In this document: positions 3,061 to 20,133 of the stretch, piece after piece
Layout: each line of letters begins with the position of its first letter
Position numbering within the stretch: the first letter of the stretch is position 1
DNA from: a virus
Length of the DNA: 23,554 bases
IMG/VR virus record: IMGVR_UViG_3300045141_000291
Span: 1-23,554 of that record
Reading direction: 5' to 3' (one strand)
Translations under genes and position numbers: made by a program
Notes under the pieces: model-generated
What the model was told of the DNA's origin: nothing
The model's database searches: none
Seen by the model: the letters and a program-made list of their open reading frames with translations, nothing else

Positions 3061-5229
3061 GTGGCGGCCCGGACGATCAGCGTCGAGATCGTCGGCGACG
3101 CGACCAGCCTGCAACGCGCGTTCGGCCGCGCGGCGTCCTCGGCGAACAGGTTCAACAGCGACATCAACCGCACATTCAGGGGTGTCCTCGCAGGCTCGGG
3201 CGCGTTCCGGTCGCTGGGCCGGTCGGTCGCGTTCGCTTCGGCGTCGTTCCTCGGCGGCGTCGGGTTCGTCCAGGTCGTCAAAAGCAGTGTCGAGGCCGCG
3301 TCGAACCTCGAGGAGCAACTATCGAAATCGAACGTGGTGTTCGGCGCCTCCGCGAACGCCGTCGAAGCGTGGGCGAAAACCACCGTCAACTCGATGGGGC
3401 TCGCCGAAGACCAGGCGCTCCAGACCGCGAGCTCGTTCGGCGCGCTACTGCGGCCGCTGGGGATCACAGGGCAGGAGGCCGCGAAACAGTCCGAACAGCT
3501 CACCCAACTCGGCGCCGACCTCGCGTCGTTCTACAACACCGACGTCAAGTCCGCCCTCGACGCGCTCCAGTCCGGCCTGACAGGGCAGGTGAGACCGTTG
3601 CGCGCCTACGGCGTGCTCCTCTCCGCCACCCGCGTCAACCAGGAAGCGCTCACGGAGACCGGGAAGAAACACGCCTCCCAGCTCACCGACCAGGAGAAAG
3701 TGATCGCTCGGTTGGCGATCATCTACAAGGACACCGCGCAGGCGCAGGGCGACTTCGCCCGCACCTCCGGAGGGTTGGCGAACCAGGAACGGATCTTGCA
3801 GGCGAACGTCCGGCAGCTCCAGATCGCATTGGGTGTCGCGCTGGTGCCGGCGATCACGAACGTCGTCAAGAAGATCAACGACTGGCTCGGGAAGTCCGGC
3901 AACCAGAAACGCGTGCAGGACGACCTGAGAGAAGCGGTCGACAAGACCATCGGCGCGATCCGGACGATCAGCGGCGTGATCCAGGACGTCGTCGGGAAGC
4001 TCGGCGGCTGGCACCAAGCCCTGATCATTCTGGTCGGCGCGTTCGCCGGGTTCAAGCTCGCCGGGATCGGCTCCGCTATCGCGGTCTCGACCGCGAACGT
4101 GATCGCCGCCGGGATCACGGAGAAGGCGTGGCAGGCCGCGCTGATCTCGACCGGCTGGGGGATCTTCGCCGTCGCCGCAGGCGTCGCCGCGACCGAGGTG
4201 ATCGCGCACTGGGAGACCGTCAAATCCTGGTTCGCGGAGTTCTGGCTCTGGCTCGAAACAACCGCCGACCAGACAGTGAAGGCGATCGTCGAGCCGTTCT
4301 CGCATCTCCCGTCCAGACTCGGGCAGTGGGCGCGTGACCTAAAAGACCAACTCAACCTCGACATCGGCTACCTCGCGAAACAGGCCGCGGACGTCGCGAA
4401 CGAAGCGCAGAGAGCCCAGGACGCGGTCGGCAAGGCGAAGACGGGCGCGGCCGCCGTGATACCCGGCGGGCCGACCGTGCCGACAGCGCCGGCCGTGACC
4501 CCAGGGACGGCCGGCGGTGGTCCTCGTGGTGTCACCGCGTCGCAGCGGAACCAGTGGTTCGACGCGATGATCAACCGGCAGCTCGGCCGGGTGCAGGACA
4601 TCACGTCATTGAGAGGGCAGATCGCCCGGCTCGGCCAGATCGCCGGGTTGATCCGCGCGCGGCTTGCCGTCACCAGGGACATCACCCGCCAACTGACGCT
4701 CGAGGACAAACTCGCGGACGTTCTTCGTCAGCAGCGCGGGACACGGGCGGACCTCACCGACCAGATCAAGCAGAAAGCGCAGGAGGCCAGTGACGCGCAA
4801 CGCGCCTGGCTCGACTTCGCCGTCGAACGCGCCCAGGCCACCAAAACCATCACGGACGATCGCAAGGCGTACGAGGCGATCGAGAAGTGGCTGAAGGACA
4901 AGATCCGGCGGGAAGGCCGCACCCTCGACCTCGTCCGCGACCTGTGGGAGACCCGCCAGAAGATCCGCGACCTGAACAAACAGAACATCGACCCGCTCGC
5001 CGGGCTGGCGCAGGTGTCGTCGAGGCAGCTCGCGAACATCCTCGCCGCCGGCACCGGCCTCGACGTCGCGGGCCGCCGCAGGCTGGTCGCGAACATCGGC
5101 GGCGCCGACATCCAGCCCGTCCACGTCCACGTCAACATCGACGGGCGCGAAGTCGCCCAGGTTGTCACGAAACACCAGGCCCGCGCAACCCGGAGAACAG
5201 CGAAACAAACGTCCGGGTTCCATGGCTGA
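3061..5229 (+). CDS. Tape measure protein
   Basis: 722 residues, GTG start two bases after the frameshift product's stop. It is the longest gene in the window and follows the chaperones, as tape measures do. Opening ARTISVEIVGDATSLQRAFG is a typical start for actinophage tape measures. Residues ~20-250 and ~500-640 are long helical stretches rich in Ala, Gln, Arg and Lys. Residues ~315-390 contain hydrophobic segments (ALIILVGAFAGFKLAG; ALISTGWGIFAVAAGVAATE) that could insert into the host membrane during DNA entry. At about 0.15 nm per residue the tail would be roughly 105-110 nm. The stop overlaps the next gene by 8 bases. Confidence 0.9.
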   Translation: MAARTISVEIVGDATSLQRAFGRAASSANRFNSDINRTFRGVLAGSGAFRSLGRSVAFASASFLGGVGFVQVVKSSVEAASNLEEQLSKSNVVFGASANAVEAWAKTTVNSMGLAEDQALQTASSFGALLRPLGITGQEAAKQSEQLTQLGADLASFYNTDVKSALDALQSGLTGQVRPLRAYGVLLSATRVNQEALTETGKKHASQLTDQEKVIARLAIIYKDTAQAQGDFARTSGGLANQERILQANVRQLQIALGVALVPAITNVVKKINDWLGKSGNQKRVQDDLREAVDKTIGAIRTISGVIQDVVGKLGGWHQALIILVGAFAGFKLAGIGSAIAVSTANVIAAGITEKAWQAALISTGWGIFAVAAGVAATEVIAHWETVKSWFAEFWLWLETTADQTVKAIVEPFSHLPSRLGQWARDLKDQLNLDIGYLAKQAADVANEAQRAQDAVGKAKTGAAAVIPGGPTVPTAPAVTPGTAGGGPRGVTASQRNQWFDAMINRQLGRVQDITSLRGQIARLGQIAGLIRARLAVTRDITRQLTLEDKLADVLRQQRGTRADLTDQIKQKAQEASDAQRAWLDFAVERAQATKTITDDRKAYEAIEKWLKDKIRREGRTLDLVRDLWETRQKIRDLNKQNIDPLAGLAQVSSRQLANILAAGTGLDVAGRRRLVANIGGADIQPVHVHVNIDGREVAQVVTKHQARATRRTAKQTSGFHG

Positions 5230-8790: not shown

Positions 8791-9966
8791 ATGGCTGTCG
8801 CGTTCCGCGCCGCCGGCGCTTTCGCCTCGAACTCGTCCGGCAACCCGGTCATCAGCTACCCGGCCGGTGTCGCCGCCGGCGACCTCCTGATCATCCAGTA
8901 CATGGTCGGCAACTCCAGCACCGTCGCCACGACTCCGTCCGGGTGGACGCTCCTGCTCGGCCCCACCGCGACGTCCGATGGCTCCCAGCCCGCGAGGGCA
9001 TACGCGTACTACAGGGTCGCCGGTGGCAGCGAACCCTCGTCGGTCACGTTCGCGCACACCGGCTCGAGCGGTCAAGCGGGCGGGATCATGAGCGCCTACA
9101 CAGGCGCCGACCCGGCAACCCCGATCAACGTGTCCACGACGGCGGGGACGGAGACGAGTGGCACGACCCAGACGGCCCCGTCGGTCACGACGACGGTCGC
9201 GAACACGCGGCTGCTCCACATGTACTGGATCACCGGCAATACCACGGTGACCCAGAATGCGGCCGACACCGAACGGTACGACACAACTTGGGCGGCCGTG
9301 TTCGAGACGTTGGAGGTTGCCGACAAGGCGCAAGCCGCGACCGGCGCCACGGGAACGTCAGGGGCGACCTACGCCACATCCGTCACTGGCGGGCTGGCCG
9401 CGACGATCGCGGTCGCGCCGATCAGCGCCGTCGCCCCGACAGCCGACTTCAGCGGCACACCAACATCAGGGACAGCCCCGCTCAGCGTCGCGTTCACGGA
9501 CGCGTCCACCGGCACCCCGACGAGCTGGGCGTGGACGTTCGGCGACGGCGGAACCTCGTCGTCGCAGAACCCAACGCACAGCTACACCACCCCCGGGACG
9601 TACACCGTGGCGCTCGTCGCGACGAACGCCACAGGGTCGAACACCAAGACCCGGACCGGGTACGTCACCGTTGGCGGCGCCCCGACAGCCGACTTCAGCG
9701 GCACACCCACGTCGGGTGTGGCGCCGCTCAGCGTGACGTTCACCGACACGAGCACGGGCACCCCGACGTCGTGGGCGTGGACGTTCGGGGACGGCGGCAC
9801 CAGCTCGAGCCAGAACCCAACGCACAGCTACACCAGCTCGGGTGTCTACACCGTCACCCTCGTCGCGACGAACACGGCCGGTTCGAACACCAAGACCCGC
9901 ACCGGGTACGTCACCGTCACGGAAACCATCTCGTACGCGTCCGGGGGAGGGATCGAGATCTGGTGA
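8791..9966 (+). CDS. Tail protein with two PKD repeats
   Basis: 391 residues. Residues 1-~215 are a strand-rich, Ser/Thr/Ala-rich domain with an internal TPSGWTLLLGPT motif common in phage and surface adhesins. Residues ~216-295 and ~298-378 are two PKD domains, each with the hallmark pattern (SWAWTFGDGGTSSSQNPTHS, YT, G.YTV.LVATN..GSNTK). PKD domains act as surface spacers or bind carbohydrate or protein. The two copies are nearly identical in DNA, so they are a recent duplication. Placed between the tail fibre genes and the endolysin, it is probably a tail fibre or host-adhesion protein. Stop overlaps the next GTG (GTGA). Confidence 0.75.
   Translation: MAVAFRAAGAFASNSSGNPVISYPAGVAAGDLLIIQYMVGNSSTVATTPSGWTLLLGPTATSDGSQPARAYAYYRVAGGSEPSSVTFAHTGSSGQAGGIMSAYTGADPATPINVSTTAGTETSGTTQTAPSVTTTVANTRLLHMYWITGNTTVTQNAADTERYDTTWAAVFETLEVADKAQAATGATGTSGATYATSVTGGLAATIAVAPISAVAPTADFSGTPTSGTAPLSVAFTDASTGTPTSWAWTFGDGGTSSSQNPTHSYTTPGTYTVALVATNATGSNTKTRTGYVTVGGAPTADFSGTPTSGVAPLSVTFTDTSTGTPTSWAWTFGDGGTSSSQNPTHSYTSSGVYTVTLVATNTAGSNTKTRTGYVTVTETISYASGGGIEIW
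9435..9917 (+). repeat. Tandem duplication of the PKD-coding segment (2 x ~237 bp, period 246)
   Basis: The segments 9435-9671 and 9681-9917 align without gaps at an offset of 246 bases (82 codons). Most differences are single bases, many in third positions. Such a repeat can expand or contract by recombination and so alter fibre length. Confidence 0.8.
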
Positions 9967-11876: not shown

Positions 11877-12101
11877 TTATCCCTCGGCGAGCTGCTCGCC
11901 TTTTTCGCGCCACCCTTGCACGGTCGGGTGCGGCACCCCGATCGCTTTGCCGAGCGCGCGGTCGCTCCACCCGTCCTGGCTCGCCCGGAACGTCGCCAGG
12001 TACAGCGCCTCCTCGGCCTCGAGCGCGGCTTGGCGGGCGTCCGTCACCGCGTCGTACAGCTCGCGGACACGGTCGGCGCTCTCCTGGGGCGGGTCGGCCA
12101 A
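11877..12101 (-). CDS. Small helix-turn-helix protein, candidate repressor or Cro-like regulator
   Basis: 74 residues on the reverse strand from TTG 12101; in-frame TGA at 12131-12129 lies just upstream and no ATG or GTG occurs between, so TTG is the only usual start. Residues ~3-45 are a helix rich in Ala and Glu (VRELYDAVTDARQAALEAEE). Residues ~45-70 form a helix-turn-helix (WSDRALGKAIGVPHPTVQGW, REKGE). It is divergent from the excisionase/integrase genes across a control region with a perfect palindrome 38-55 bases before its start. That place is where phage switch regulators sit. No other repressor was found in the window. Confidence 0.6.
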   Translation of the reverse strand: MADPPQESADRVRELYDAVTDARQAALEAEEALYLATFRASQDGWSDRALGKAIGVPHPTVQGWREKGEQLAEG

Positions 12102-12138
12102 TGTCCGTGCAGGTTGGCCGAAAGTACGTCATATTCGT

Positions 12139-12156
12139 TGCATGGCCTCTCATGCA
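12139..12156. promoter_or_regulatory. Perfect 6-6-6 palindrome, candidate operator
   Basis: TGCATG, six bases, CATGCA. It lies 38-55 bases upstream of the leftward HTH start, over the position expected for its -35. It could be an autoregulatory operator. Binding is not shown. Confidence 0.4.
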
Positions 12157-12326
12157 GTGGTAGCCTCCGCGCGTCCCGAGACGCCGGCAAGCTGTTGGTT
12201 GGCTTGGTGCTGTGGCTGACGCCGTCGGGTGTGACCGGAGCGGAAGGGCGGCGCATGGCGGCGGCGGCAGGGACGGCAGGCTCTCATCGATCTTTCATAG
12301 TTGCCGCAAAATGCGGGCAGTTCCGC

Positions 12327-12406
12327 TGTCCCCGTCTGTCCCCGTCTGTCCCCCGCACGCACCTGCTGTCCCCGTTTGTCCCCGTCTGTCCCCGTTTGTC
12401 CTGTCG
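12327..12406 (+). repeat. Eight 10-bp units in exact register, consensus TGTCCCCGTY
   Basis: Units begin at 12327, 12337, 12347, 12357, 12367, 12377, 12387 and 12397. Five are TGTCCCCGTC or TGTCCCCGTT. The third (TGTCCCCCGC) and eighth (TGTCCTGTCG) are diverged, and the fourth is lost in sequence but keeps the 10-base spacing. One unit per helical turn would place bound proteins on one face of DNA. It ends 22 bases before the excisionase-like start. Operator, excisionase/integrase arm or iteron are all possible. Confidence 0.75.
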
Positions 12407-12428
12407 AGGGAACCGGTAAACCGGGGCG

Positions 12429-12635
12429 ATGACCGCGAACGGGAACGGGAACGGGAGGCTGCTCACCGTCACCGAGGTCGCGGACTGGCTCGGCGTCAGC
12501 ACAAAAACGGTTGTCCGCTGGACACGTAACGGGAAGCTCCCGTTCGTCAAGCTTCCCGGCGGCCGGCTCCGCTACGACCCCGCCGAAATCCAGATGTGGA
12601 TCGAGGCGCACCACGGCAGCGAGCAGAACGCATGA
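12429..12635 (+). CDS. Excisionase-like MerR-type HTH protein
   Basis: 68 residues, ATG. Residues ~11-60 match the helix-turn-helix 17 / excisionase family: LLTVTEVADWLGVSTKTVVR, W, then NGKLPFVKLPGGRLRYDP and a closing EIQMWIEAHH. Such proteins are recombination directionality factors or small DNA-binding regulators. The gene overlaps the integrase by ATGA and immediately follows the 10-bp repeat array, so it may bind there. Small basic proteins of this type beside an integrase usually favour excision; a purely regulatory role is the alternative. Confidence 0.75.
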   Translation: MTANGNGNGRLLTVTEVADWLGVSTKTVVRWTRNGKLPFVKLPGGRLRYDPAEIQMWIEAHHGSEQNA

Positions 12636-13771
12636 GTACCATCCTGGCCGACAACAAGAAGCCCGGCGCCGCCGAAACGGCCCGGGCACGGCACAGGAGG
12701 TCTCAGCTCCCATGCTCGACCGATCCTACGGCAGCACCGCTCGAGGTGGCGCTGCTCACACTCGCCCAGGCCCGGGCGATCCTGGCGGACCCGATGCGTG
12801 ACCTGGCGTACCTCGACACGCGACTCGGGCCGACGGTGGCCGCGTACATCGCGTGGAAGAAACTCGGCCGGCCCGCCAAGACCACGATCGACACCTACGA
12901 GCGTCGGCTCGCTCGGCTCGCGGTCGGGCTCCCCCCCGGTGTCGGGATCGCCGAGCTCGACGTCGCCGACCTCAGCCTGTACCTGAACACGGTGCCGCCG
13001 GACAGCTGGCAGCACGACCGGACGATCATCAACGGGTTCATCAAGTGGGCGATCATGTACGACCACCGCCCCGCGAAGAACCCGATCGAGTTCCTGCCGA
13101 AGATGCTGCCGGCGCCGCAACGCACGATCAAGGTGTTCGCCGAGCACGAGATCGACTCGATCATCAACGCCGCCCGCTTCATGGACGATCCTGTCCGTGA
13201 CGTCGCCCGCGCGCAGCTGATGATCGATTCGGGCTGCCGCAAGGCCGAGCTCCGGATGCTCCAGCACCAGCACATCAAGCCGGGGAAGAGGCTGATCGAA
13301 GTGATCGGGAAGGGCGACAAGGAACGCGAGATCCCGATCCACGGCGATTTCTGGCTCGCGTACGAGCACAGCCTGCTCGAGCCGATCCCGAAGCTTGACC
13401 GGCTCCCCGAGCCCGACGACTTCTTCTGGTTCCCGATGCGGATCGCGGGTGAGTACAAGGGCCGCGATCGGCAGGTGACCCGGGCCTACCCCGAGAAGCC
13501 GATGGGTCAGCGCAGCTTCCACGAGTGGTGGGTGCGGCTGATCGATCACGCCGGCGTCACCTACAGGAAGCCGCACACCACGAGGCACACCTACGCGACC
13601 GCCGCGCTCGAAGCCAGCGACGGGGACATCTACGGCGTCAAGGAGCTTCTCGGCCACGCCTCGGTCTCGACGACCGAGCTGTACCTGCACGCGGGGAAGA
13701 AGGCGAAGGAATCGGTCGCGCGGAAGCTCGCCGCGGCGCGTCGCCTGACCCGCGAGGATCGCCCGTCGTGA
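12632..13771 (+). CDS. int: Tyrosine integrase
   Basis: 379 residues from ATG 12632 (ATGA overlap). Residues ~70-165 are the SAM-like core-binding domain (GPTVAAYIAWKKLGRPAKTT...YERRLARL). The catalytic domain shows the full set: Arg203 (DSGCRKAELR), Lys227 (VIGKGDKEREIPI), His315 and Arg318 (PHTTRHTYAT), His342 (LLGHASVSTTE) and Tyr351 (TTELYLHAG). It would recombine attP with a host attB. The N-terminal ~65 residues have no evident AP2-like arm-binding motif but are basic. A tRNA-like site follows 77 bases after the stop, and the repeat-separated gene array begins there. Confidence 0.93.
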   Translation: MSTILADNKKPGAAETARARHRRSQLPCSTDPTAAPLEVALLTLAQARAILADPMRDLAYLDTRLGPTVAAYIAWKKLGRPAKTTIDTYERRLARLAVGLPPGVGIAELDVADLSLYLNTVPPDSWQHDRTIINGFIKWAIMYDHRPAKNPIEFLPKMLPAPQRTIKVFAEHEIDSIINAARFMDDPVRDVARAQLMIDSGCRKAELRMLQHQHIKPGKRLIEVIGKGDKEREIPIHGDFWLAYEHSLLEPIPKLDRLPEPDDFFWFPMRIAGEYKGRDRQVTRAYPEKPMGQRSFHEWWVRLIDHAGVTYRKPHTTRHTYATAALEASDGDIYGVKELLGHASVSTTELYLHAGKKAKESVARKLAAARRLTREDRPS

Positions 13772-13777
13772 CAACAG

Positions 13778-13786
13778 TTATCCACA
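13778..13786 (+). promoter_or_regulatory. Perfect DnaA-box sequence
   Basis: TTATCCACA matches the DnaA-box consensus exactly, seven bases after the integrase stop. A lone box may be fortuitous or could assist host-driven replication; no cluster of boxes or AT-rich unwinding region was seen beside it. Confidence 0.4.
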
Positions 13787-13848
13787 GCCGGAGATTTTGT
13801 TGCGATAGGGCGTCTCGCAAACCCGCATGGTTGCGTTATTTAAGGCGC

Positions 13849-13875
13849 CTAGCGGATTCGAACCGCTGTTACAGG
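13849..13875 (+). repeat. T-arm-like repeat R1 (att core copy)
   Basis: CTAGCGGATTCGAACC followed by GCTGTTACAGG. First of eight like-oriented copies and the only one whose T-stem pairs fully (AGCGG/CCGCT). It is not near any start codon. Confidence 0.75.
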
Positions 13876-13893
13876 CATAAGGCCCGAAAGTCA

Positions 13894-13920
13894 CAAAACC
13901 CTGCAAAACACGGGGTTTTG
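13894..13920 (+). terminator. Hairpin CAAAACCC / GGGTTTTG, likely bidirectional terminator
   Basis: An 8-bp perfect stem (13894-13901 with 13913-13920) has a GC core and an A4/T4 outer part, so each strand ends in GGGTTTT. It lies 120 bases behind the integrase, after the att core, and could end integrase transcription and that of anything arriving leftward. Confidence 0.55.
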
Positions 13921-13939
13921 GGGTGAACCAGCGTTCAAG

Positions 13940-14021
13940 CTTGGCGAGGGGTGAAGCACACCCCGCTACTCAGGCGGGCGGGATGAGGGCGCTGAAGCAC
14001 CCTCCCCGGCCCCTCGCCGAG
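13940..14021. ncRNA. Highly structured non-coding element between R1 and R2
   Basis: A 12-bp outer stem (13940-13951 pairs with 14010-14021, one G-U) encloses further hairpins: GGGGTG/CACCCC at 13948-13964 (an alternative to the outer stem) and GAGGG/CCCTC at 13985-14004, extended by GGG/CCC beyond a 2-base bulge. GCTGAAGCAC-type words occur twice. No convincing protein is encoded. It could be a small RNA or a folded recombination site; transcription is not shown. Confidence 0.4.
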
Positions 14022-14030
14022 ATCGCCTTC

Positions 14031-14057
14031 TTAGCGGATTCGAACCAGCGTTACCGG
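14031..14057 (+). repeat. T-arm-like repeat R2
   Basis: TTAGCGGATTCGAACC then AGCGTTACCGG. It supplies the stop codon (TAA on the reverse strand, 14053-14051) of the leftward gene that follows it. 182 bases from R1. Confidence 0.75.
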
Positions 14058-14206
14058 CCGACCGGCGTTAGCTCCGCCAGCGCCTCTTCGATCAGCTTCC
14101 GCGCTTCCTCGATCTTCGGGAGCGGCGAGTCATCGATCCAGTGCGCCGACTCCGCGTCGGACAGAAGGTCGTCTAGCCGTTCCAGCAGTTCGCGGATCTC
14201 AGGCAT
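14051..14206 (-). CDS. 51-residue helical hypothetical protein, cassette between R2 and R3
   Basis: Reverse strand, ATG 14206, TAA within repeat R2. The product opens MPEIRELLERLDDLLSDAES and continues with PKIEEARKLIEEALAELTP: two amphipathic helices separated by HWIDDSPL. Composition is clearly protein-like, whereas the opposite strand gives Ser/Arg-rich sequence. Its start lies 10 bases from R3. No family recognised. Similar small two-helix proteins occur in phage accessory regions. Confidence 0.6.
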   Translation of the reverse strand: MPEIRELLERLDDLLSDAESAHWIDDSPLPKIEEARKLIEEALAELTPVGR

Positions 14207-14215
14207 GCCATGACG

Positions 14216-14242
14216 CTAGCGGATTCGAATCCCAGAAAACGG
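14216..14242 (+). repeat. T-arm-like repeat R3
   Basis: CTAGCGGATTCGAATCCC then AGAAAACGG. Preceded by ATGACG, so a rightward reading would start ATG-ACG-CTA, but the genes on both sides run leftward. 185 bases from R2. Confidence 0.75.
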
Positions 14243-14261
14243 CCGGAGGCCGACGATGTGA

Positions 14262-14426
14262 TCAGTCCTGTCCGGCAAGCAGACGACGTGCGACCTCCGG
14301 ATAGCTATTCGCCATCAGGTTCGCGTGGATCTCGGGACCAGCCGGGAGCGGTTCTTTGGCGTGAACTCGCTGGAAGTGCGAGAGCAGCTTCGCGTATTCG
14401 GCTGGCGTCAGAGGCTGCCAGGTCAC
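14262..14426 (-). CDS. 54-residue hypothetical protein, cassette between R3 and R4
   Basis: Reverse strand, GTG 14426 to TGA 14262. Sequence WQPLTPAEYAKLLSHFQRVH then LPAGPEIHANLMANSYPEVA and RRLLAGQD has the balanced composition of a small folded protein. The frame stays open to 14537 through repeat R4, so the start is uncertain; upstream residues are repeat-derived (LLGFESG) and unlikely to be part of it. No ribosome binding site stands out. Function unknown. Confidence 0.5.
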   Translation of the reverse strand: MTWQPLTPAEYAKLLSHFQRVHAKEPLPAGPEIHANLMANSYPEVARRLLAGQD

Positions 14427-14445
14427 AGGGATTGGATTGTAGTCG

Positions 14446-15177
14446 ATGAGCCTTCCGGATTCGAACCCCAGTAAGCGGCAGCCGGGTGCCGCACACGAAG
14501 ACGTGAGGTGGCCTGCACCGGAGACGAGGCTCGACATCGGGCTACGGAAGTTGCGCGACTACGGCGGCGGCGCGGTGCTTTCTGACGCTGAGGCGGACGC
14601 AATCCTGGCTGATCGTGCCGCGCTTGTGGCTGCGCGAGACACCGCCGAGCGGGAACGGGACGAACTAAGGGAGGCTCTCCAAGATGAGTTGGACAATTGG
14701 AACCCGGAGGCACGGCCGACGATCAGCGCGGAACTTCGTGCGGCCGAGGCCAGCCGGGACGTAGCAGCAGCCGCGTTCCGCGATCTGCTGGCCATCGCAG
14801 AGGAAGAAGTCGGGCCGAAGGACTCTGCGCCGGAGAAGGATGCCGCGTATTGGGCCGCGATCGACCTGGACAAGGGCTACCAGGTTCCGGGCGTGCAACG
14901 GCGCATCCGGCTCGCAAGGGCCGTGCTCGCCGCTCGTGAGGCTCTGCGCGTCACCGGCCAACCGCTGAGCGAGCCTGGAGGGGTGCCCGCTGGAGACCGG
15001 GACGCCGAGATGAGCCAGTCTGCTCCCTCCGGCTCGCTGAGCGAGCACGAGGCATGGTGCGCGATGTACACCGGAACGGGCGCCATCTGTAACTGCGCGC
15101 CACGTGCGGTCACCGACCAGGGGCAGGCAACGGAAACGAGCGAGACGGTTGTGATCGATGACGGGTTCGGGATATGA
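14446..15177 (+). CDS. 243-residue coiled-coil hypothetical protein with repeat-encoded N-terminus
   Basis: ATG 14446; N-terminus MSLPDSNPSKRQ comes from repeat R4. Residues ~45-75 and ~85-115 are long charged helices (AALVAARDTAERERDELREA; ISAELRAAEASRDVAAAAFR) likely to form coiled coils. The C-terminal part has SEHEAWCAMYTGTGAICNCA with three Cys, resembling the end of small phage proteins that may bind metal. It is by far the longest gene of the array (731 bases between repeats, against 134-236 elsewhere) and may be two cassettes fused after loss of an intervening repeat. No family recognised. Stop overlaps the next ATG (ATGA). Confidence 0.65.
   Translation: MSLPDSNPSKRQPGAAHEDVRWPAPETRLDIGLRKLRDYGGGAVLSDAEADAILADRAALVAARDTAERERDELREALQDELDNWNPEARPTISAELRAAEASRDVAAAAFRDLLAIAEEEVGPKDSAPEKDAAYWAAIDLDKGYQVPGVQRRIRLARAVLAAREALRVTGQPLSEPGGVPAGDRDAEMSQSAPSGSLSEHEAWCAMYTGTGAICNCAPRAVTDQGQATETSETVVIDDGFGI
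14452..14478 (+). repeat. T-arm-like repeat R4
   Basis: CTTCCGGATTCGAACCCC then AGTAAGCGG. Codons 3-11 of the rightward gene at 14446, encoding LPDSNPSKR. 236 bases from R3. Confidence 0.75.
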
Positions 15178-15344
15178 CCGGCCTAGCGGACTCGAACCCC
15201 AGAAAACGGCTGGAAGCACTCCTCGAAGTGGCCGAAGCAGCTAAGGCGTTCGTATCCACGACGAGCTACTTTCGCCAGCCGCGTTCATCGCGGGCTGAGT
15301 TTGAGGCGCTCGCTATCGCGCTGATCAAAGCGGAGTCGGCGTGA
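15174..15344 (+). CDS. 56-residue hypothetical protein with repeat-encoded N-terminus
   Basis: ATG 15174 overlaps the previous stop (ATGA). It begins MTGLADSNPRKRLEALLEVA, the first 12 residues coming from repeat R5, and continues as helices (EAAKAFVSTTSYF; SSRAEFEALAIALIKAES). Two helices joined by a short loop, of the size of the leftward cassette protein at 14051. Stop overlaps the next GTG (GTGA). No family recognised. Confidence 0.65.
   Translation: MTGLADSNPRKRLEALLEVAEAAKAFVSTTSYFRQPRSSRAEFEALAIALIKAESA
15183..15209 (+). repeat. T-arm-like repeat R5
   Basis: CTAGCGGACTCGAACCCC then AGAAAACGG, starting 9 bases after ATG 15174; encodes LADSNPRKR. Shares the preceding TGACCGGC with R6. 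Confidence 0.8.
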
Positions 15345-15556
15345 CCGGCCTAGCGGACTCGAATCCCAGTAACGATCCGCCTGTCCGGTCTTGTTGCGGG
15401 CAGCGCCACTACGGAGTCCAGTGTCCAGACGGCAAGGTGATGTGCTGCCTCTGCTTCGAGAGGTTCGCCATCTCCGAGTTGAACGAAACGGCGGACGGCG
15501 ACAAGGAAGACGTGTGCCTGGAGTGCGGCGAGATGGAGGCGCGAGCGTGGCCCTAG
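15341..15556 (+). CDS. Zinc-ribbon-like 71-residue protein with repeat-encoded N-terminus
   Basis: GTG 15341 (GTGA overlap). N-terminus TGLADSNPS comes from repeat R6. Two CxxC pairs, Cys35/Cys38 (VMCCLCFERF) and Cys59/Cys62 (DVCLECGEME), are 20 residues apart, the layout of a zinc ribbon; further Cys18, Cys19 and Cys28 may form a second site. It may bind nucleic acid or protein. Its TAG stop is the TAG of repeat R7, so the repeat provides both this gene's stop and the next gene's N-terminus. Confidence 0.7.
   Translation: MTGLADSNPSNDPPVRSCCGQRHYGVQCPDGKVMCCLCFERFAISELNETADGDKEDVCLECGEMEARAWP
15350..15376 (+). repeat. T-arm-like repeat R6
   Basis: CTAGCGGACTCGAATCCC then AGTAACGAT, 9 bases after GTG 15341; encodes LADSNPSND. 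The right end is the most diverged of R3-R7. 167 bases from R5. Confidence 0.75.
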
Positions 15557-15690
15557 CGGACTCGAACCCCAGCAAACGGCGGAACGCGCGAGCGTGGCAA
15601 CGCGCCTATGTCCTCTGGCTGCTCGACCGTGATCCCGAGTACGCGGCGAAGCTCATCAAGCGGTTCCGATGGAAGAAGCCGAAGCCTTGA
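15547..15690 (+). CDS. 47-residue basic hypothetical protein with repeat-encoded N-terminus
   Basis: GTG 15547; begins MALADSNPSKRRNARAWQRA, residues 3-11 coming from repeat R7. Then a helix (YVLWLLDRDPEYAAKLIKRF) and a Lys-rich end (RWKKPKP). Strongly basic, so nucleic-acid or membrane association is possible. Overlaps the upstream gene by 10 bases and the next by TTGA. No family recognised. Confidence 0.6.
   Translation: MALADSNPSKRRNARAWQRAYVLWLLDRDPEYAAKLIKRFRWKKPKP
15553..15579 (+). repeat. T-arm-like repeat R7
   Basis: CTAGCGGACTCGAACCCC then AGCAAACGG, 6 bases after GTG 15547; encodes LADSNPSKR. 203 bases from R6. Confidence 0.8.
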
Positions 15691-15713
15691 CGGATCAGAA
15701 CCCCAGTTACCGG
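15687..15713 (+). repeat. T-arm-like repeat R8 (most diverged)
   Basis: TTGACGGATCAGAACCCC then AGTTACCGG. The T-loop core TTCGA is lost on the reverse strand (TTCTGA), but the flanks CGGA, GAACCCCAG and CGG remain. Here the start codon itself lies inside the repeat. 134 bases from R7; last copy. Confidence 0.65.
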
Positions 15714-15788
15714 AGGCTGGGCGAGCCGCCCGTAGGGCAGGGGTGCCGTGTGGCGGGCGGCTCGCCGAGCCTCGAGGAGCCGATGTGA
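15687..15788 (+). CDS. 33-residue hypothetical protein with diverged repeat N-terminus
   Basis: TTG 15687 overlaps the previous stop (TTGA). It begins MTDQNPSYRRLGEPP, the diverged form of the LADSNPSKR start encoded by R8, and ends SPSLEEPM with GTGA overlap to the next gene. Short and without clear secondary structure. It is kept because of the overlaps and the shared N-terminal pattern; it may be a decayed cassette. Confidence 0.4.
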   Translation: MTDQNPSYRRLGEPPVGQGCRVAGGSPSLEEPM

Positions 15789-15922
15789 TTGTCGCGGCCG
15801 CGCTGATGTTCTTCGTCGGGCTCGGCGTCGGCATCGTCGCTACCTGCGTTTTCTACGACTCGGTCGTCGGGGGTCTCGGCGGGCTCCGCGAGTTCGGCGA
15901 TCTCTATCGGGACGACCGATGA
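15785..15922 (+). CDS. 45-residue membrane protein
   Basis: GTG 15785 overlaps the previous stop (GTGA). Nearly half is one hydrophobic segment, IVAAALMFFVGLGVGIVATC, followed by VFYDSVVGGLGGL and an acidic/basic end (REFGDLYRDDR). A single-span inner-membrane protein, unrecognised. The last gene right after the repeat array; it has no repeat of its own. Overlaps the next ATG (ATGA). Confidence 0.6.
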   Translation: MIVAAALMFFVGLGVGIVATCVFYDSVVGGLGGLREFGDLYRDDR

Positions 15923-15981
15923 AAGCCGCCGGCGACGACCGGCGAGGCCACCCAATTCTCACGAAGGGATCGGTGATCTGA
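15919..15981 (+). CDS. 20-residue micro-ORF
   Basis: ATG 15919 overlaps the previous stop (ATGA); product MKAAGDDRRGHPILTKGSVI. Chance ORFs of this size are common, but its start and stop both fall in overlaps with neighbours. It may act only to couple translation into the next gene, whose CTG start lies on its stop codon. Confidence 0.3.
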   Translation: MKAAGDDRRGHPILTKGSVI

Positions 15982-16319
15982 ACCGTGCAGCCCATCTCAT
16001 CCTCGCCCTGTACCTGCTCGCGCTCGCCCTGGCCGTCACGGCGAAAACGACCCGGTCGACACCTGATGCGCTTATGCGCGGGTTCATGTGTATCCACCGG
16101 TTTGAGGGCTCGTGGACGGATCCGGGCGCCCCGTATTACGGCGGCCTGCAGATGGACTGGACGTTCATGAGCACCTACGGCCCGGACTATTTGCGGGCGT
16201 GGGGGACGGCGGATCATTGGCCGCCGGCGGTTCAGATCGCGGTCGCGATGCGCGCCTACCTGTCGGGGCGCGGGTTTTATCCGTGGCCGAACAGCGCGAG
16301 ATTGTGCGGGCTGATCTGA
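15978..16319 (+). CDS. Secreted transglycosylase-like protein, apparent CTG start
   Basis: 113 residues if started at CTG 15978, which overlaps the upstream TGA (CTGA) and follows GAAGGGAT at suitable distance. No ATG, GTG or TTG exists in frame before ATG 16074. Residues 2-~24 (NRAAHLILALYLLALALAVT) make a clear signal peptide or anchor, which would be lost from 16074. The mature domain carries CIHRFEGSW with Glu43 in the catalytic position, then APYYGGLQMDW and a closing GRGFYPWPNSARLCGLI. This matches the compact lysozyme/Rpf-like transglycosylase domains common in Actinobacteria. Cys38 and the C-terminal Cys may bridge. It sits in the early operon rather than the lysis block. Confidence 0.65.
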   Translation: MNRAAHLILALYLLALALAVTAKTTRSTPDALMRGFMCIHRFEGSWTDPGAPYYGGLQMDWTFMSTYGPDYLRAWGTADHWPPAVQIAVAMRAYLSGRGFYPWPNSARLCGLI

Positions 16320-16957
16320 TGCCCGCGAGGGATCCGGCGCCTGCACCGTCACCCCCGCCTAGCCCGACAGGCGGTCAGGCGCCGGACACAGAGTGGGCGA
16401 GGAAGCTCCGTGAGTCGTTCCCGGCGTCGCAGATCGGGAAGCTACCAAAGGGCGGGGTGATGCTCGACTACGTCGGTCACGCCGCCGTCACCAGCAGGCT
16501 CCTCGAGGTCGATCCCGGCTGGGCGTGGGAACCGATGGCGCTGACCCCAGAGGGGTTGCCGGCGCTCGATCGTGCGGGGAACCTGTGGATCCGGTTGACG
16601 GTGTGCGGTGTCACCCGCCCAGGTGTCGGCGACGGCAGGAACGCGAAGGAGTGCATCAGTGACGCGATCCGTAACGCGGCGATGCGGTTCGGGGTCGCAC
16701 TGGACTTGTGGGCGAAAGAAGACCTGCGCGGCGACGCCGCCGACGAGTCACAGGAGCAGCCGCGGGCGGCTGCTCCTGTGATCACGAACCCGCAGCGGAA
16801 ACGGCTGTGGGCGGTCGCGAAGGAGAACACCGTCAGCGAGGAGCTGCTCCGCAAGATCGTGTTCGACGTCGCCGGCGTCGACTCGACATTGGACATTCCG
16901 CGTGACCGGTACGACCTGATCATCGAGGCGATCCAGGCGCAGGCCGTCCCGTTCTGA
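16319..16957 (+). CDS. Rad52/Sak-like single-strand annealing protein
   Basis: 212 residues from ATG 16319 (overlap with the previous TGA); GTG 16304 is an alternative. A Pro/Ala-rich N-terminus precedes the domain at residues ~38-145: MLDYVGHAAVTSRLLEVDPG, WAWEPMALTPEGLP, then WIRLTVCGVTRPGVGDG and KECISDAIRNAAMRFGVALD. The order G-V-G-x-G, K-E-x-x-x-D-A-x-R-x-A-x-R-x-F-G is that of Rad52-like phage recombinases. The C-terminal ~60 residues (TNPQRKRLWAVAKENTVSEE) are a separate small helical domain. It would anneal single strands during recombination-dependent replication. No partner exonuclease was recognised. Confidence 0.65.
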   Translation: MPARDPAPAPSPPPSPTGGQAPDTEWARKLRESFPASQIGKLPKGGVMLDYVGHAAVTSRLLEVDPGWAWEPMALTPEGLPALDRAGNLWIRLTVCGVTRPGVGDGRNAKECISDAIRNAAMRFGVALDLWAKEDLRGDAADESQEQPRAAAPVITNPQRKRLWAVAKENTVSEELLRKIVFDVAGVDSTLDIPRDRYDLIIEAIQAQAVPF

Positions 16958-17109
16958 TGGACGCCCCGCGAGAGACGGTGCCGCCGGCTTGGGTGTATGA
17001 CGAGCCCGAACGCGAATGGGCCGGGTCGGAGCTCCTGCCCGATCCGCGTGAGGAACGCCTCGAGGAGTTGTACGCGGCGTCGAGGCAGAAGCGTGAGGAC
17101 GCGGAGTAA
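16957..17109 (+). CDS. 50-residue acidic hypothetical protein
   Basis: ATG 16957 shares a base with the upstream stop. Sequence PPAWVYDEPEREWAGSELLP then a charged helix (REERLEELYAASRQKREDAE). No family recognised. Its place between the annealing protein and the replication protein, with no gap on either side, suggests a replication accessory role. Confidence 0.55.
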   Translation: MDAPRETVPPAWVYDEPEREWAGSELLPDPREERLEELYAASRQKREDAE

Positions 17110-17664
17110 GTGGACGGCTGGATCGTCGTCCGGAACTGGGACCGGTTCCAGCACTACACCGATCGGCGGCCGGTGTGGATCAAGCTTTACACCGACATCA
17201 ACAGCAACGACGAATGGCTCGGGTTGAGCAGCGCAGCTCGCGGGATGTTGACGACGATCTGGGTCGAATTCGCGCGAAGTGGAGGCCACTTAAGGGTGCA
17301 AAAGTGTATGGAACTGTGCGGGAAGTCCGCGCGAAGCTCGCACCTCGACTCGTTGATTCATGCGGGTTTCATCCAGGTTGTTGCTAGCAAGCCGCTAGCC
17401 CAGAGAAGAGAAGAAGAAGAGAAGAAAGAACTTAAAGCTCCGACTCTCAGACTCGAACCACCAAAACCAGCACCGACCGCGTCTCACCGCACGAACGTCG
17501 TCGCCGCTGACGGGTTCGCGGCGATCGAACGGATGATCCGTAACGGCGTCATCCACGACGACCTCGACCTCGACGCAGAGCTCCGCGGCTACCGCATCGA
17601 CGGGCACCTCGCCGAAAGCCTCCACGAACAACTCGAACGCAGACTCAGCGGGCAGCAGTCGTGA
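17110..17664 (+). CDS. Replication-initiator-like protein
   Basis: 184 residues, GTG directly after the previous TAA. Residues 1-~95 (WIVVRNWDRFQHYTDRRPVW, IKLYTD, then LSSAARGMLTTIWVEFARSG) resemble the N-terminal winged helix of phage replisome-organiser/initiator proteins, which typically begin with a 'W..V.NW..FQHY' strand. A very purine-rich linker (17401-17436, QRREEEEKKELK) separates it from a helical C-terminal domain (GFAAIERMIRNGVIHDDLDL). It would bind the origin and recruit the host helicase. The origin may lie in or near this gene. Confidence 0.6.
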   Translation: MDGWIVVRNWDRFQHYTDRRPVWIKLYTDINSNDEWLGLSSAARGMLTTIWVEFARSGGHLRVQKCMELCGKSARSSHLDSLIHAGFIQVVASKPLAQRREEEEKKELKAPTLRLEPPKPAPTASHRTNVVAADGFAAIERMIRNGVIHDDLDLDAELRGYRIDGHLAESLHEQLERRLSGQQS

Positions 17665-17804
17665 CACCGCTCGAACGGGAACAAGCCAAAGAGATCACCA
17701 AACTCCGCCACCTACTCCAACGCGCCAACACCCGCGTCTCGAAACAACGCCGCCGCGCGGAACTATGGCGGCTCCGCTGGCGCCGAGACCGCCAACACCA
17801 ATGA
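17661..17804 (+). CDS. 47-residue strongly basic protein
   Basis: GTG 17661 (GTGA overlap). A single helix: EREQAKEITKLRHLLQRANT, then VSKQRRRAELWRLRWRRDRQ. The charge and heptad-like Leu spacing suggest a small DNA- or RNA-binding coiled coil. No family recognised. Overlaps the next ATG by ATGA. Confidence 0.6.
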   Translation: MTPLEREQAKEITKLRHLLQRANTRVSKQRRRAELWRLRWRRDRQHQ

Positions 17805-18076
17805 CACGCCGCACCAGCAAGCACGGCACCACCTACACCCAAGGCTCCTCGAGCACACCACCAGCCGGGATGCCCCACACCTGCGGGATCTGCGGACAAC
17901 GGATCTACACCAGCCGCGAATCGTTTCAACACCACATCGACGACATCGCGCATACTCAGCACGCCTGGCATATCGCCTGCAAACAAGGAGGAACCATGAA
18001 CGAAACAACCGAACCCACCACACCCGAACCCACCGAGCCAGAGCCCGACAGCGGCGACGAGGGCGACGAGGAGTGA
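17801..18076 (+). CDS. Zinc-finger-like 91-residue protein
   Basis: ATG 17801 (ATGA overlap; a longer in-frame GTG/ATG at 17765 would overlap the upstream gene in a Pro-rich shadow). Residues 28-60 hold CGICGQ (Cys28, Cys31), His44/His45, His51, His54, His57 and Cys60, enough for a zinc-binding unit. The C-terminal 26 residues are Glu/Thr/Pro-rich and acidic. An internal in-frame ATG at codon 66 has a strong ribosome binding site, so a separate 26-residue acidic product may also be made. Likely a small nucleic-acid- or protein-binding regulator. Confidence 0.55.
   Translation: MTRRTSKHGTTYTQGSSSTPPAGMPHTCGICGQRIYTSRESFQHHIDDIAHTQHAWHIACKQGGTMNETTEPTTPEPTEPEPDSGDEGDEE
17986..17991 (+). promoter_or_regulatory. 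Strong internal Shine-Dalgarno (AGGAGG) before in-frame ATG 17996
   Basis: AGGAGG sits 4 bases before ATG 17996, inside the zinc-finger-like gene and in its frame. It would start an acidic 26-residue peptide (MNETTEPTTPEPTEPEPD...). It is among the clearest ribosome binding sites in the window. Confidence 0.5.
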
Positions 18077-18162
18077 ACTACCGAACCATCACCATCGGCG
18101 AGATCGCATGGGTCGTCATCGCGGTGTTCGTCGTCCTCGGCTACTTCAACGGCTGGGGCTAA
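18073..18162 (+). CDS. 29-residue membrane micro-protein
   Basis: GTG 18073 (GTGA overlap). Product NYRTITIGEIAWVVIAVFVV then LGYFNGWG, one transmembrane segment with a short hydrophilic N-terminus. TAA shares a base with the next ATG. No family recognised; small membrane proteins in early phage operons may modify the host envelope or exclude other phages, but this is not shown here. Confidence 0.55.
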   Translation: MNYRTITIGEIAWVVIAVFVVLGYFNGWG

Positions 18163-18383
18163 TGAACACCACCAACCCCCGCGCCTGGATCGACGCGAAC
18201 CACGTACCCATGATCCGACACGACGTCCCGCTCGACGAGGCGAAAGAGCTCACCGCGATCATGCACCAAGCGTTCAACGCCGGCGTCCTCAAAGGCATCG
18301 CCCAAGCCGATTTTTTGAGACCACCCGGCCGCAAGACTCCGAACCCGTTCGCGTATTTCCCCCCCGGGGCTGATGTCGCCTAG
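18162..18383 (+). CDS. 73-residue hypothetical protein before terminase
   Basis: ATG 18162 overlaps the previous stop. It contains WIDANHVPMIRHDVPLDEA, KELTAIMHQAFNAGVLKGIA and a Pro-rich end (FLRPPGRKTPNPFAYFPP). It overlaps the terminase gene by 11 bases. Position alone would allow a small terminase subunit, but it is short and has no HTH, so it is left unassigned. Confidence 0.6.
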   Translation: MNTTNPRAWIDANHVPMIRHDVPLDEAKELTAIMHQAFNAGVLKGIAQADFLRPPGRKTPNPFAYFPPGADVA

Positions 18384-20133
18384 CTCGCCTGCGTATGGGG
18401 CGCGGTACGCGCGGATCCGGCGGATGCAGCTCGGCCAGGGTGTTGTGTGCGCTCACTGCAAGCGGCGACCGGCGACGACGTTGGATCACCATCCGCCGTT
18501 GGCGATGCACATCCATGTCGAGGGGTCGAGGTGCTGTCACCTGATCCCGTCGTGCGCGGAGTGCAACCGCGAGGGCGGCCATCTGGTGCAGCAGGGCCGG
18601 TGGCGCCCCGACGCGTTGGTCGCGCCGGCGGAGCTGGAGCCGGAGCCGGAACGCGTCGGGGTCGGGCCCGACGACAAGCGGTGGCGGGTGCCGTGGCTGA
18701 GGGGGCTGCGCCAGCCGCCCGCCGACGCTGCGTGGCCGAGGTTGATGTCGGTGCCGCACCGCCGCGCCGTCGGGTCGCTCGGGCCGGAGTTCGTCCGTTC
18801 GGCTGAGGAACGGTCTGGTCGGTCGCTCAGGTGGTGGCAGCGGCTCGCGGCGACCCGGATGCTCGAGATCGACGACCAGGACAGGTTGGTGTGGGAAACG
18901 GTGCTGCTGTCGATGCCCCGCCAGCTCGGGAAGTCGTGGCTCCTCCGTGAGCTGTGTTTGTGGCGGATCCATCAGGGTGGCCGGTTCGGGGAGCCGCAGG
19001 ACGTTTTGCACACCGGGAAGGACCTCGCGGTGTGCAAGGAGGTGCAACGGCCGGCGCGGGTGTGGGCGAAAGCCCGGCCGGAGTTCAAGGTGCGGGAGGT
19101 GAACGGGCAGGAGGAGATCGAGCTCCTCGAGGACGGATCACGGTGGATGCTCCGCGCGAAGGAGGCCGTCTACGGGTACTCCGTCAGCTTGGCGGCCGCG
19201 GACGAGGCGTGGAAGGTGCGGGCATCGTCGATCGAGGAGGGGCTCGAGCCGACGATGGTCGAGCGGGAACAGCCGCAACTTTTGCTCGTGTCGACGGCGC
19301 ACAGGCTCTCGACGACGCTGATGCTCGGCCGGCGGAAGCTCGCGTTGGAGGGCCTCGAGCTCGGCGAGGGGGAGCTCCTGATCGAGTGGAGCGCACCGCT
19401 CGAGGCAGACCTCGACGACGTGTCGGTGTGGCGGCACGCGTCCGCGCACTGGTCGGGCCGGCGGGAGCACACGATCCGGAAGCAGCTCGAGGCCGCGAGG
19501 TCGGGGACGTTGGAGGACCCCGAGGAGCCGGACCCGGTCGCGTCGTTCCGGGCGCAGTGGCTGAACCAGTGGCCCCGCCGCGTCACCGAGCCGTCGGGCG
19601 GCACCGAGGCTCTGCTCCCGGCGGGGTTGTGGGCCGACCGTGCCGAGGCCGGCGTCGCCTCGACGGGGCCGATCTGGGTCGCATTGGAGGACGACTACGG
19701 GCTGGGCGCGGCCGTCGCGGCGGTCGGGAAGCTCCCCGACGGCAGGTTGGAGGTCGACGCGTGGGCGTGCCCCGACTGGGACACGGCCGTCGTCGAGCTC
19801 CAACGCCTCGCCGGGCACCGCCCGGTCAAGCAGCTCCTCGTCGGCGCGTCGCTGATCGACCGGGTCCCTGCCGGCACCGCCCCGGTCCCGTCCGCCGCCG
19901 GCGGCACCCAAACCCGGACCGGGCTCGCGCTGCTCCGCGACCTCGCAGTCGGAGGGCAACTCGTCCACGACGTCACCACGTTCGAGCTCGACGAGGCACT
20001 CACGGTCGCGCAGGTGCGGGAGGCACCGACCGGGCTGTTCCTGATCGCGCGCGGGCCGACCCACCTGATCCGCGCGCTGGTGTGGGCCGTCGGTGCCGCT
20101 CACCGCCCCGCTCCCGTCCCGTCGATCCATTAG
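18373..20133 (+). CDS. Terminase large subunit with fused N-terminal HNH domain
   Basis: 586 residues, one uninterrupted ORF. Residues 26-69 form an HNH-like zinc-stabilised motif: Cys26/Cys29, Asp38-His39-His40, His56, Cys61/Cys64-Asn65 (HLIPSCAECNREGG). The terminase begins near residue 95: Walker A SMPRQLGKSW (Lys187), Walker B SLAAADEAW (Asp277-Glu278), and a C-terminal nuclease part with VALEDDYG as a probable first acidic metal ligand. It would drive DNA into the prohead and cut it. HNH proteins are usually separate genes beside terminases; fusion is notable. No small subunit was identified. Confidence 0.85.
   Translation: MSPSSPAYGARYARIRRMQLGQGVVCAHCKRRPATTLDHHPPLAMHIHVEGSRCCHLIPSCAECNREGGHLVQQGRWRPDALVAPAELEPEPERVGVGPDDKRWRVPWLRGLRQPPADAAWPRLMSVPHRRAVGSLGPEFVRSAEERSGRSLRWWQRLAATRMLEIDDQDRLVWETVLLSMPRQLGKSWLLRELCLWRIHQGGRFGEPQDVLHTGKDLAVCKEVQRPARVWAKARPEFKVREVNGQEEIELLEDGSRWMLRAKEAVYGYSVSLAAADEAWKVRASSIEEGLEPTMVEREQPQLLLVSTAHRLSTTLMLGRRKLALEGLELGEGELLIEWSAPLEADLDDVSVWRHASAHWSGRREHTIRKQLEAARSGTLEDPEEPDPVASFRAQWLNQWPRRVTEPSGGTEALLPAGLWADRAEAGVASTGPIWVALEDDYGLGAAVAAVGKLPDGRLEVDAWACPDWDTAVVELQRLAGHRPVKQLLVGASLIDRVPAGTAPVPSAAGGTQTRTGLALLRDLAVGGQLVHDVTTFELDEALTVAQVREAPTGLFLIARGPTHLIRALVWAVGAAHRPAPVPSIH

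Follow-up and report, generated by a model that had tools for sequence, protein, structure and literature searches.

Putative tRNA-derived stop-start junctions in an exchangeable small-gene locus of temperate phages

The region downstream of the integrase gene in the temperate-phage contig analysed here contains eight short repeats (R1-R8, at about 13843-15713), five of which (R4-R8) begin five proteins. We favour, with modest confidence, an interpretation in which these repeats are stop-start junctions of tRNA and attachment-site (att) origin that serve an exchangeable locus of small genes, and that are probably recombined by annealing. Under this scenario, the repeats would be copies of an att-related fragment of a host tRNA-Cys gene, on the antisense strand and comprising the acceptor-strand end, the T-arm, the variable loop and part of the anticodon stem, placed beside the integrase and kept as junctions for exchangeable small accessory genes. 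Each junction would end the upstream ORF (via RTGA, TTGA or an internal TAG), would give the downstream ORF its start codon and about nine codons, and would provide 27-45 nt of homology, such that recombination between two junctions, within a genome or between phages, would swap or delete a gene body while keeping the reading frame. Such swapping of gene bodies would explain why unrelated proteins share an N-terminus, and the leader peptide itself would be translated, weakly constrained, and mainly a consequence of the junction.

The phage and its repeat array

The window (the whole stretch of DNA that was analysed) is an IMG/VR virus record of 23,554 bases. Its putative terminase, portal, protease and capsid genes were named from sequence and synteny together with the 80 terminase relatives that we recovered. 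The tRNA match described below and GC content are the two indications that suggest a host among the Actinomycetota (Thermoleophilia); the tRNA match alone does not fix the host, since one of the three metagenome-assembled genomes (MAGs) in question is labelled Flavobacteriaceae, and the leader pattern occurs in 0 of 399 Thermoleophilia genomes, which hence provide neither an integrated copy nor proof of the host. Among the isolated phages of INPHARED no relative of the repeat was found, and integrase relatives among isolated phages have less than 30% identity. An Rfam search of positions 12001-18500 gave weak matches only, all below gathering scores, and none of the five leader proteins matched a Pfam or PHROGs family above cut-off. 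Two further repeated sequences lie outside the array: a 243-nt direct duplication in a tail-region gene (9429-9671 and 9675-9917, 82% identical, by eye a PKD-like repeat), and decamer repeats of the CTGTCCCCGT type at 12325-12403, between repressor-like and excisionase-like ORFs.

The 16-nt core of the repeat has 10 matches at no more than 3 mismatches, compared to 0.78 expected and a largest count of 4 among 100 shuffles. A preliminary description of this DNA had reported that proteins starting at 14446, 15174, 15341, 15547 and 15687 share an N-terminus, with start codons 0-9 bases before the repeat; all five are present, at offsets of 6, 9, 9, 6 and 0 nt (Table 1). Its statement that no supported gene begins at R1-R3 stands (R1 is a likely attP core and R2 starts no gene), with the caveat that R3 does have an in-frame ATG, opening a 79-aa plus-strand ORF that is not gene-like (GC3 0.47, versus 0.73-0.92 in core genes). 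A leader of the same CAGCG type as R2 also comes first in two related contigs (L007 and L128). In the R2-R3 and R3-R4 intervals, minus-strand ORFs look, on sequence grounds, like real genes of these intervals, and consequently not every junction starts a gene. After the array, a small membrane-type protein (15785-15922) with counterparts in contigs G004, G008 and G011 marks the far border.

Table 1 Features of the integrase-proximal region, in window coordinates
Feature	Coordinates	Strand	Remarks
Tyrosine integrase	12596..13771	+	Pfam PF00589, E 1.6e-20; phrog_1 integrase, E 1.4e-38
R1, likely attP core	13843..13869	-	Reverse complement matches tRNA-Cys(GCA) gene 3' end (T-arm and acceptor strand)
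AAAACCC...GGGGTTTT hairpin	13895..13919		After R1; terminator-like
R2, CAGCG-type leader	14031..14057	+	First after R1; starts no gene
Small gene between R2 and R3, 51 aa	14051..14206	-	GC3 0.81; no family match
R3 leader	14216..14242	+	In-frame ATG at 14210, 6 nt upstream
Probable gene between R3 and R4	about 14262..14423	-	GC3 0.69; exact start uncertain
R4 leader, LPDSNPSKR	14452..14478	+	ATG at 14446
Cassette gene 1, 243 aa	14446..15177	+	MS-LPDSNPSKR; no known family
R5 leader, LADSNPRKR	15183..15209	+	ATGA stop-start overlap at 15174-15177
Cassette gene 2, 56 aa	15174..15344	+	ATG; MTG-LADSNPRKR
R6 leader, LADSNPSND	15350..15376	+	GTGA overlap at 15341-15344
Cassette gene 3, 71 aa, Cys-rich	15341..15556	+	GTG; VTG-LADSNPSND; homologues with and without leader
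R7 leader, LADSNPSKR	15553..15579	+	Cassette gene 3 stops at the TAG in CTAGCGG (15554-15556)
Cassette gene 4, 47 aa	15547..15690	+	GTG; VA-LADSNPSKR
R8 leader, LTDQNPSYR	15687..15713	+	TTGA overlap, in which TTG itself serves as the start codon
Cassette gene 5, 33 aa	15687..15788	+	LTDQNPSYR
Single-strand annealing protein (SSAP) gene	16112..16957	+	phrog_3290, E 1.3e-51, residues 90-243; downstream of array; true start probably inside this ORF

Origin of the repeat in a tRNA-Cys gene

A 25-nt pattern taken from R1 (reverse complement) was found in three bacterial MAG contigs, two of them from Actinomycetota and one from another MAG, always where a tRNA-Cys(GCA) gene has its 3' end, and the full stretch of identity is 27 nt long. 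R1 is likely to be the attP core, judging from its sequence and setting: as at T-loop attachment sites in tRNA genes, the identity runs from the T-stem to the acceptor, and the integrase gene ends 73 nt upstream. ARAGORN found no tRNA in the window, from which it follows that R1 is a fragment.

Of the 29 positions of the leader consensus (CCTAGCGGATTCGAACCCCAGTAAACGGC), 27 agree with the antisense strand of the tRNA-Cys from the two Actinomycetota MAGs, and this agreement takes in the GTAAACGGC part, absent from R1. The next-best tRNA among 35 reaches 20/29, and the best of 200 shuffled consensuses likewise reaches 20. These comparisons point firmly to the leader repeats being derived from tRNA-Cys, an origin that the preliminary description had missed, together with the fact that the repeat also supplies the stop of the preceding gene.

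The T-stem is intact in R1, and at R1-type sites in relatives the stem AGCGGA...TCCGCT is kept even where the loop has changed, whereas none of 63 leaders (R2-R8 and those of relatives) contains the T-stem dyad. This difference suggests either that the leaders no longer act as integrase cores, or that a hairpin beside a start codon is selected against. An R1-type block also follows the integrase in relatives, where the hairpin downstream of R1 is likewise kept despite altered loops; its presumed function is that of a terminator. R1, the following GTTACAGGCATAAGGCC stretch and the hairpin (13843-13919 in the window) are conserved in several phages, two of which have diverged integrases, and this conservation suggests a role beyond attB matching. 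In contigs G004 and L127, another tRNA-antisense stretch (GGCGGCGGGAATCGAACCCGC) is found just before an R1 relic whose T-loop is altered, as though the integrase had switched to a different target.

Anatomy of the junctions

Across the window and related phages, 44 of the 63 leaders have an in-frame ATG or GTG exactly 6 or 9 nt upstream, against a background of about 2.5% per position (binomial P about 4e-43, a nominal value given that related leaders are not fully independent), and we presume that translation starts at these and the other codons listed. An RTGA stop-start overlap with the previous gene is found at 41/63 leaders, and in the window the stop of the previous ORF lies in or against the junction at each of R5-R8 (Table 1). 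Some leaders are located inside long ORFs, in frame and without a start of their own. Right arms of leaders are either tRNA-like (GTAAACGG) or attP-like (GTTACAGG).

A near-fixed position relative to the start codon, together with frequent stop-start overlaps, would also be expected of a start-associated regulatory element, in which the repeat would aid the initiation or coupling of translation, or would be bound by a regulator, at early genes, with shuffling incidental. We consider this rather unlikely. It gains from a cousin phage (G006) that has at the same locus a different repeat, CTCCTGATAGGAGCGAA, just upstream of starts, and from the loss of the tRNA hairpin in every leader, as expected near a start codon. 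However, the repeat lies downstream of the start and has no Shine-Dalgarno sequence, while Shine-Dalgarno-like motifs precede 19/44 leader starts (versus a 15% background), and so many of the genes may have ordinary initiation sites. Moreover, a 13-bp motif known from starts in cluster K mycobacteriophages (GGGATAGGAGCCC) has no match in the window at up to 2 mismatches, and R2 and R3 carry the repeat in places where no supported plus-strand gene begins. Nor is there a common RNA structure across the leaders, which have little local structure; a function through RNA structure was accordingly rejected. A repressor operator was also rejected, as the palindrome GGATTCGAATCC is lost in the GGT and CAG variants and none was found outside the array. 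Cousin phage G006 (contig L142) has three copies of GCCGAGTCTCCTGATAGGAGCGAACAGTGAGCG at 3559-3591, 3834-3866 and 4448-4480, just upstream of starts at the same locus, and this repeat has GATAGGAGC in common with the cluster K motif.

Constraint on the DNA and on the peptide

Codon usage within the leaders shows a mixed pattern. Where codon 2 (GCG/CCG) encodes Ala or Pro it always ends in G, Pro-6 is CCC in 55/57 leaders, and codon 10 retains C-N-G, its middle base being free; these invariant third bases and the C-N-G pattern would fit either DNA-level constraint or recent copying. By comparison, Leu-1 uses all six Leu codons, at codon 3 GAY predominates and at codon 5 AAY, codon 4 is free to vary (S, G, Q, A, R, D, P), and codons 6-7 change in whole phage groups (NPS, NQR, NWC, NER). 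Between contigs, pN/pS is 0.56 in the coding frame (bootstrap 0.52-0.61, a width that is only a guide, as contigs were resampled but copies of one contig can be compared) versus 1.06 and 1.77 in the other frames, and thus the peptide is not free to drift.

A potential explanation for this pattern is that the LADSNPSKR-type N-terminus is a peptide tag that functions in the protein, for example in sorting, stability or processing, and the in-frame pN/pS, the use of every Leu codon at position 1 with GAY and AAY at positions 3 and 5, and the frame-keeping of leaders within long ORFs are all in its favour. Yet a tag would account neither for the freedom of codon 4 and the group-wise switching of codons 6-7, nor for the invariant third bases of codons 2 and 6 and the C-N-G at codon 10; furthermore, homologues of the R6 protein and of an MT-A70 methyltransferase work without the leader, and we regard the tag as distinctly unlikely. 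Both levels appear to matter, with the constraint on the peptide being weak. Consequently, the initial proposal of a DNA-level function with the peptide as a by-product agrees with the codon patterns but goes too far in treating the peptide as wholly a by-product, and the converse proposal, that synonymous differences reflect selection on the peptide, holds only in the sense of a weak constraint.

Related arrays and probable cassette exchange

Pattern scans, together with integrase and terminase searches, recovered leader arrays in about 20 viral contigs, which represent a group of bacterial viruses from soil, mostly between the integrase and an SSAP gene. A position-weight scan found 75 repeats above threshold (about 70 leaders and five R1-type); across 636 kb of sequence from relatives that lack arrays, it gave one leader-like match scoring above 12 bits. 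Beyond the phage group, initial matches to the 16-nt pattern were for the most part isolated chance occurrences (e.g. L093, L095, L101, L103, L111), and these were set aside. We rejected an artefact of tandem repeats or of assembly, the repeat being present in independent contigs from many samples. Leader variants include LADSNP, LADGNP (CTAGCGGACGGTAATCCCAG), LADQNP, LPDSNP, and CAGCG- and TGGTG-types; 23/63 leaders are identical at no fewer than 27 of 30 positions to one in another contig, and 11/63 to one in the same contig.

Plus-strand blastn was used to compare array regions, all-against-all tblastx being too noisy. DNA matches between phages inside the arrays are mostly leader-sized, ending within about -34 to +39 of the leader, while longer ones fall in the integrase, in R1 and in the early genes downstream. 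G003 and L115 become similar exactly at the leader end (82% over 375 nt), and a methyltransferase segment common to G003 and G008 stops 12 nt before the next leader. The window has only one cassette family in common with another array.

Two protein families occur both with and without the leader. Relatives of the R6 protein (cassette gene 3) were found in seven other viral contigs, two at 80% with a leader variant (L190, L191) and five at 59-76% without one (L192-L196), and all converge just before PVRLCC; for the body of the R4 protein (cassette gene 1), the viral contigs held no relative. The MT-A70 methyltransferase has the leader in G003 (VTLPESNPS-YRTIVADPPW) and lacks it in G008 (VKYRTIVADPPW) and G013 (VRYRTIVADPPW). 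The occurrence of both proteins elsewhere in leaderless form indicates that the leader has either been joined to a native N-terminus or taken its place, and is in line with the early suggestion that an incoming cassette would acquire a ready start codon and leader at such a site, a suggestion further strengthened by the restriction of in-array similarity mostly to the repeat, and by one cassette-free junction. In neither of the two families tested did homologues naturally carry the same N-terminus without the repeat.

This junction comes from IMGVR_UViG_3300024232_000019 (G010), a contig whose ends overlap. One end carries two leaders 110 bp apart, equivalent to a 110-bp cassette, whereas the other carries a single hybrid leader that joins the upstream flank of the first to the downstream flank of the second, with the change inside CGGATTCGAATCCCAG, the 16-bp repeat core. 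A pure assembler error is less likely here because the core is shorter than usual assembly k-mers, although a PCR or library chimera at the core may be the source of this single metagenomic junction. Gene exchange at the repeats is nevertheless supported by the comparative data and this junction, and we infer that recombination at the repeat is frequent.

Which enzyme would recombine the junctions?

The phage SSAP encoded just downstream of the array is the best candidate for the enzyme, considering its adjacency and the short pairing segments that would be needed: Redbeta needs exact pairing over only 23-27 bp, and RecA over 31-34 (PMC3945230). Adjacency is weak evidence, given that SSAP genes are common in the early regions of temperate phages. 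Downstream SSAPs belong to three unrelated PHROG groups, namely phrog_3290 (the window, L127, G014), Erf-like (L115, L129) and RecT-like (G003, G004, G005, G007, G008, L104, L128, G011); G006 has a sub-threshold RecT match, and none of the tested SSAP families was found in G009 or G010.

Alternatively, the tyrosine integrase might recombine att-like leaders, as integron integrases do with attC. The succession of integrase, attP, and repeats with ORFs resembles an integron, the tRNA-like and attP-like right arms are such as recombination products would have, and there is a precedent in the PAISt element of Streptomyces, which excises in modules via internal att-like palindromes (PMC4057263). 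Nonetheless, all leaders lack the dyad that R1-type sites keep, and the integrase of mycobacteriophage Ms6, which has a T-loop attachment site in tRNA-Ala, needs a perfect 26-nt core (PMC1762012). Integrase profiles match 14 of the 20 records searched, and the arrays of G005 and G010 have leaders but no integrase match, even though G010 is the contig with the cassette-free junction; in all, the profiles for tyrosine integrase, resolvase, RecT, Erf, phrog_561 and phrog_3290 each failed to match G010. An integrase-driven array therefore seems to us very improbable. A broader version, a phage counterpart of the integron whose att-derived translated junctions allow single small genes to be captured or lost by a dedicated recombination activity (integrase or partner) and not by ordinary annealing, strikes us as distinctly unlikely. 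The regulatory, peptide-tag and integrase-driven alternatives are not mutually exclusive.

Significance and comparison with known systems

Attachment sites in tRNA genes, start-associated repeats and hypervariable early-gene regions are usually kept apart, and are linked here. If true, annealing between tRNA-derived junctions would let phages trade small accessory genes with no loss of frame, stop or start, and would help to explain both the faster turnover of such loci relative to the rest of the genome and the common N-terminus of unrelated small proteins. For annotators, the warning is that a shared N-terminus is not evidence of homology. The literature searched describes no such system, and this absence is not proof of novelty.

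Lambdoid phages have short conserved boundary or linker sequences at module junctions, which are thought to guide module exchange. These linkers vary from border to border, whereas here one repeat family occurs at most borders of a single locus and brings with it a stop and a start.

In cluster K mycobacteriophages, start-associated sequences (SAS/ESAS; the SAS is 13 bp long, precedes the start and contains AGGAG) have a proposed but unproven role in initiation (PMC3203893). Like SAS, the leader repeats are short, direct and in a single orientation, and they mark where numerous non-structural phage genes, unrelated to one another, begin. However, SAS lie 3-7 bp upstream of the start, whereas our repeat, of 27-45 bp, begins 0-9 nt after the first base of the start codon, and is translated and tRNA-derived.

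R1 resembles T-loop sites such as that of Ms6 in matching a tRNA 3' end from T-stem to acceptor beside a tyrosine integrase, while the leaders differ from such sites in being multiple, in lacking the T-stem dyad and in lying at gene starts. PAISt is similar in that a portion of the element can excise through att-like core copies within it; it is, however, large and conjugative and has three sites, whereas in the phage arrays many repeats separate individual small genes and use of the integrase is putative. Finally, as in integrons, there is an integrase gene, an attachment site, and an array of small variable ORFs separated by repeats; in contrast to integrons, the leaders do not form attC-like hairpin-folding sites, arrays also exist without an integrase gene, and the start codon is provided within the repeat.
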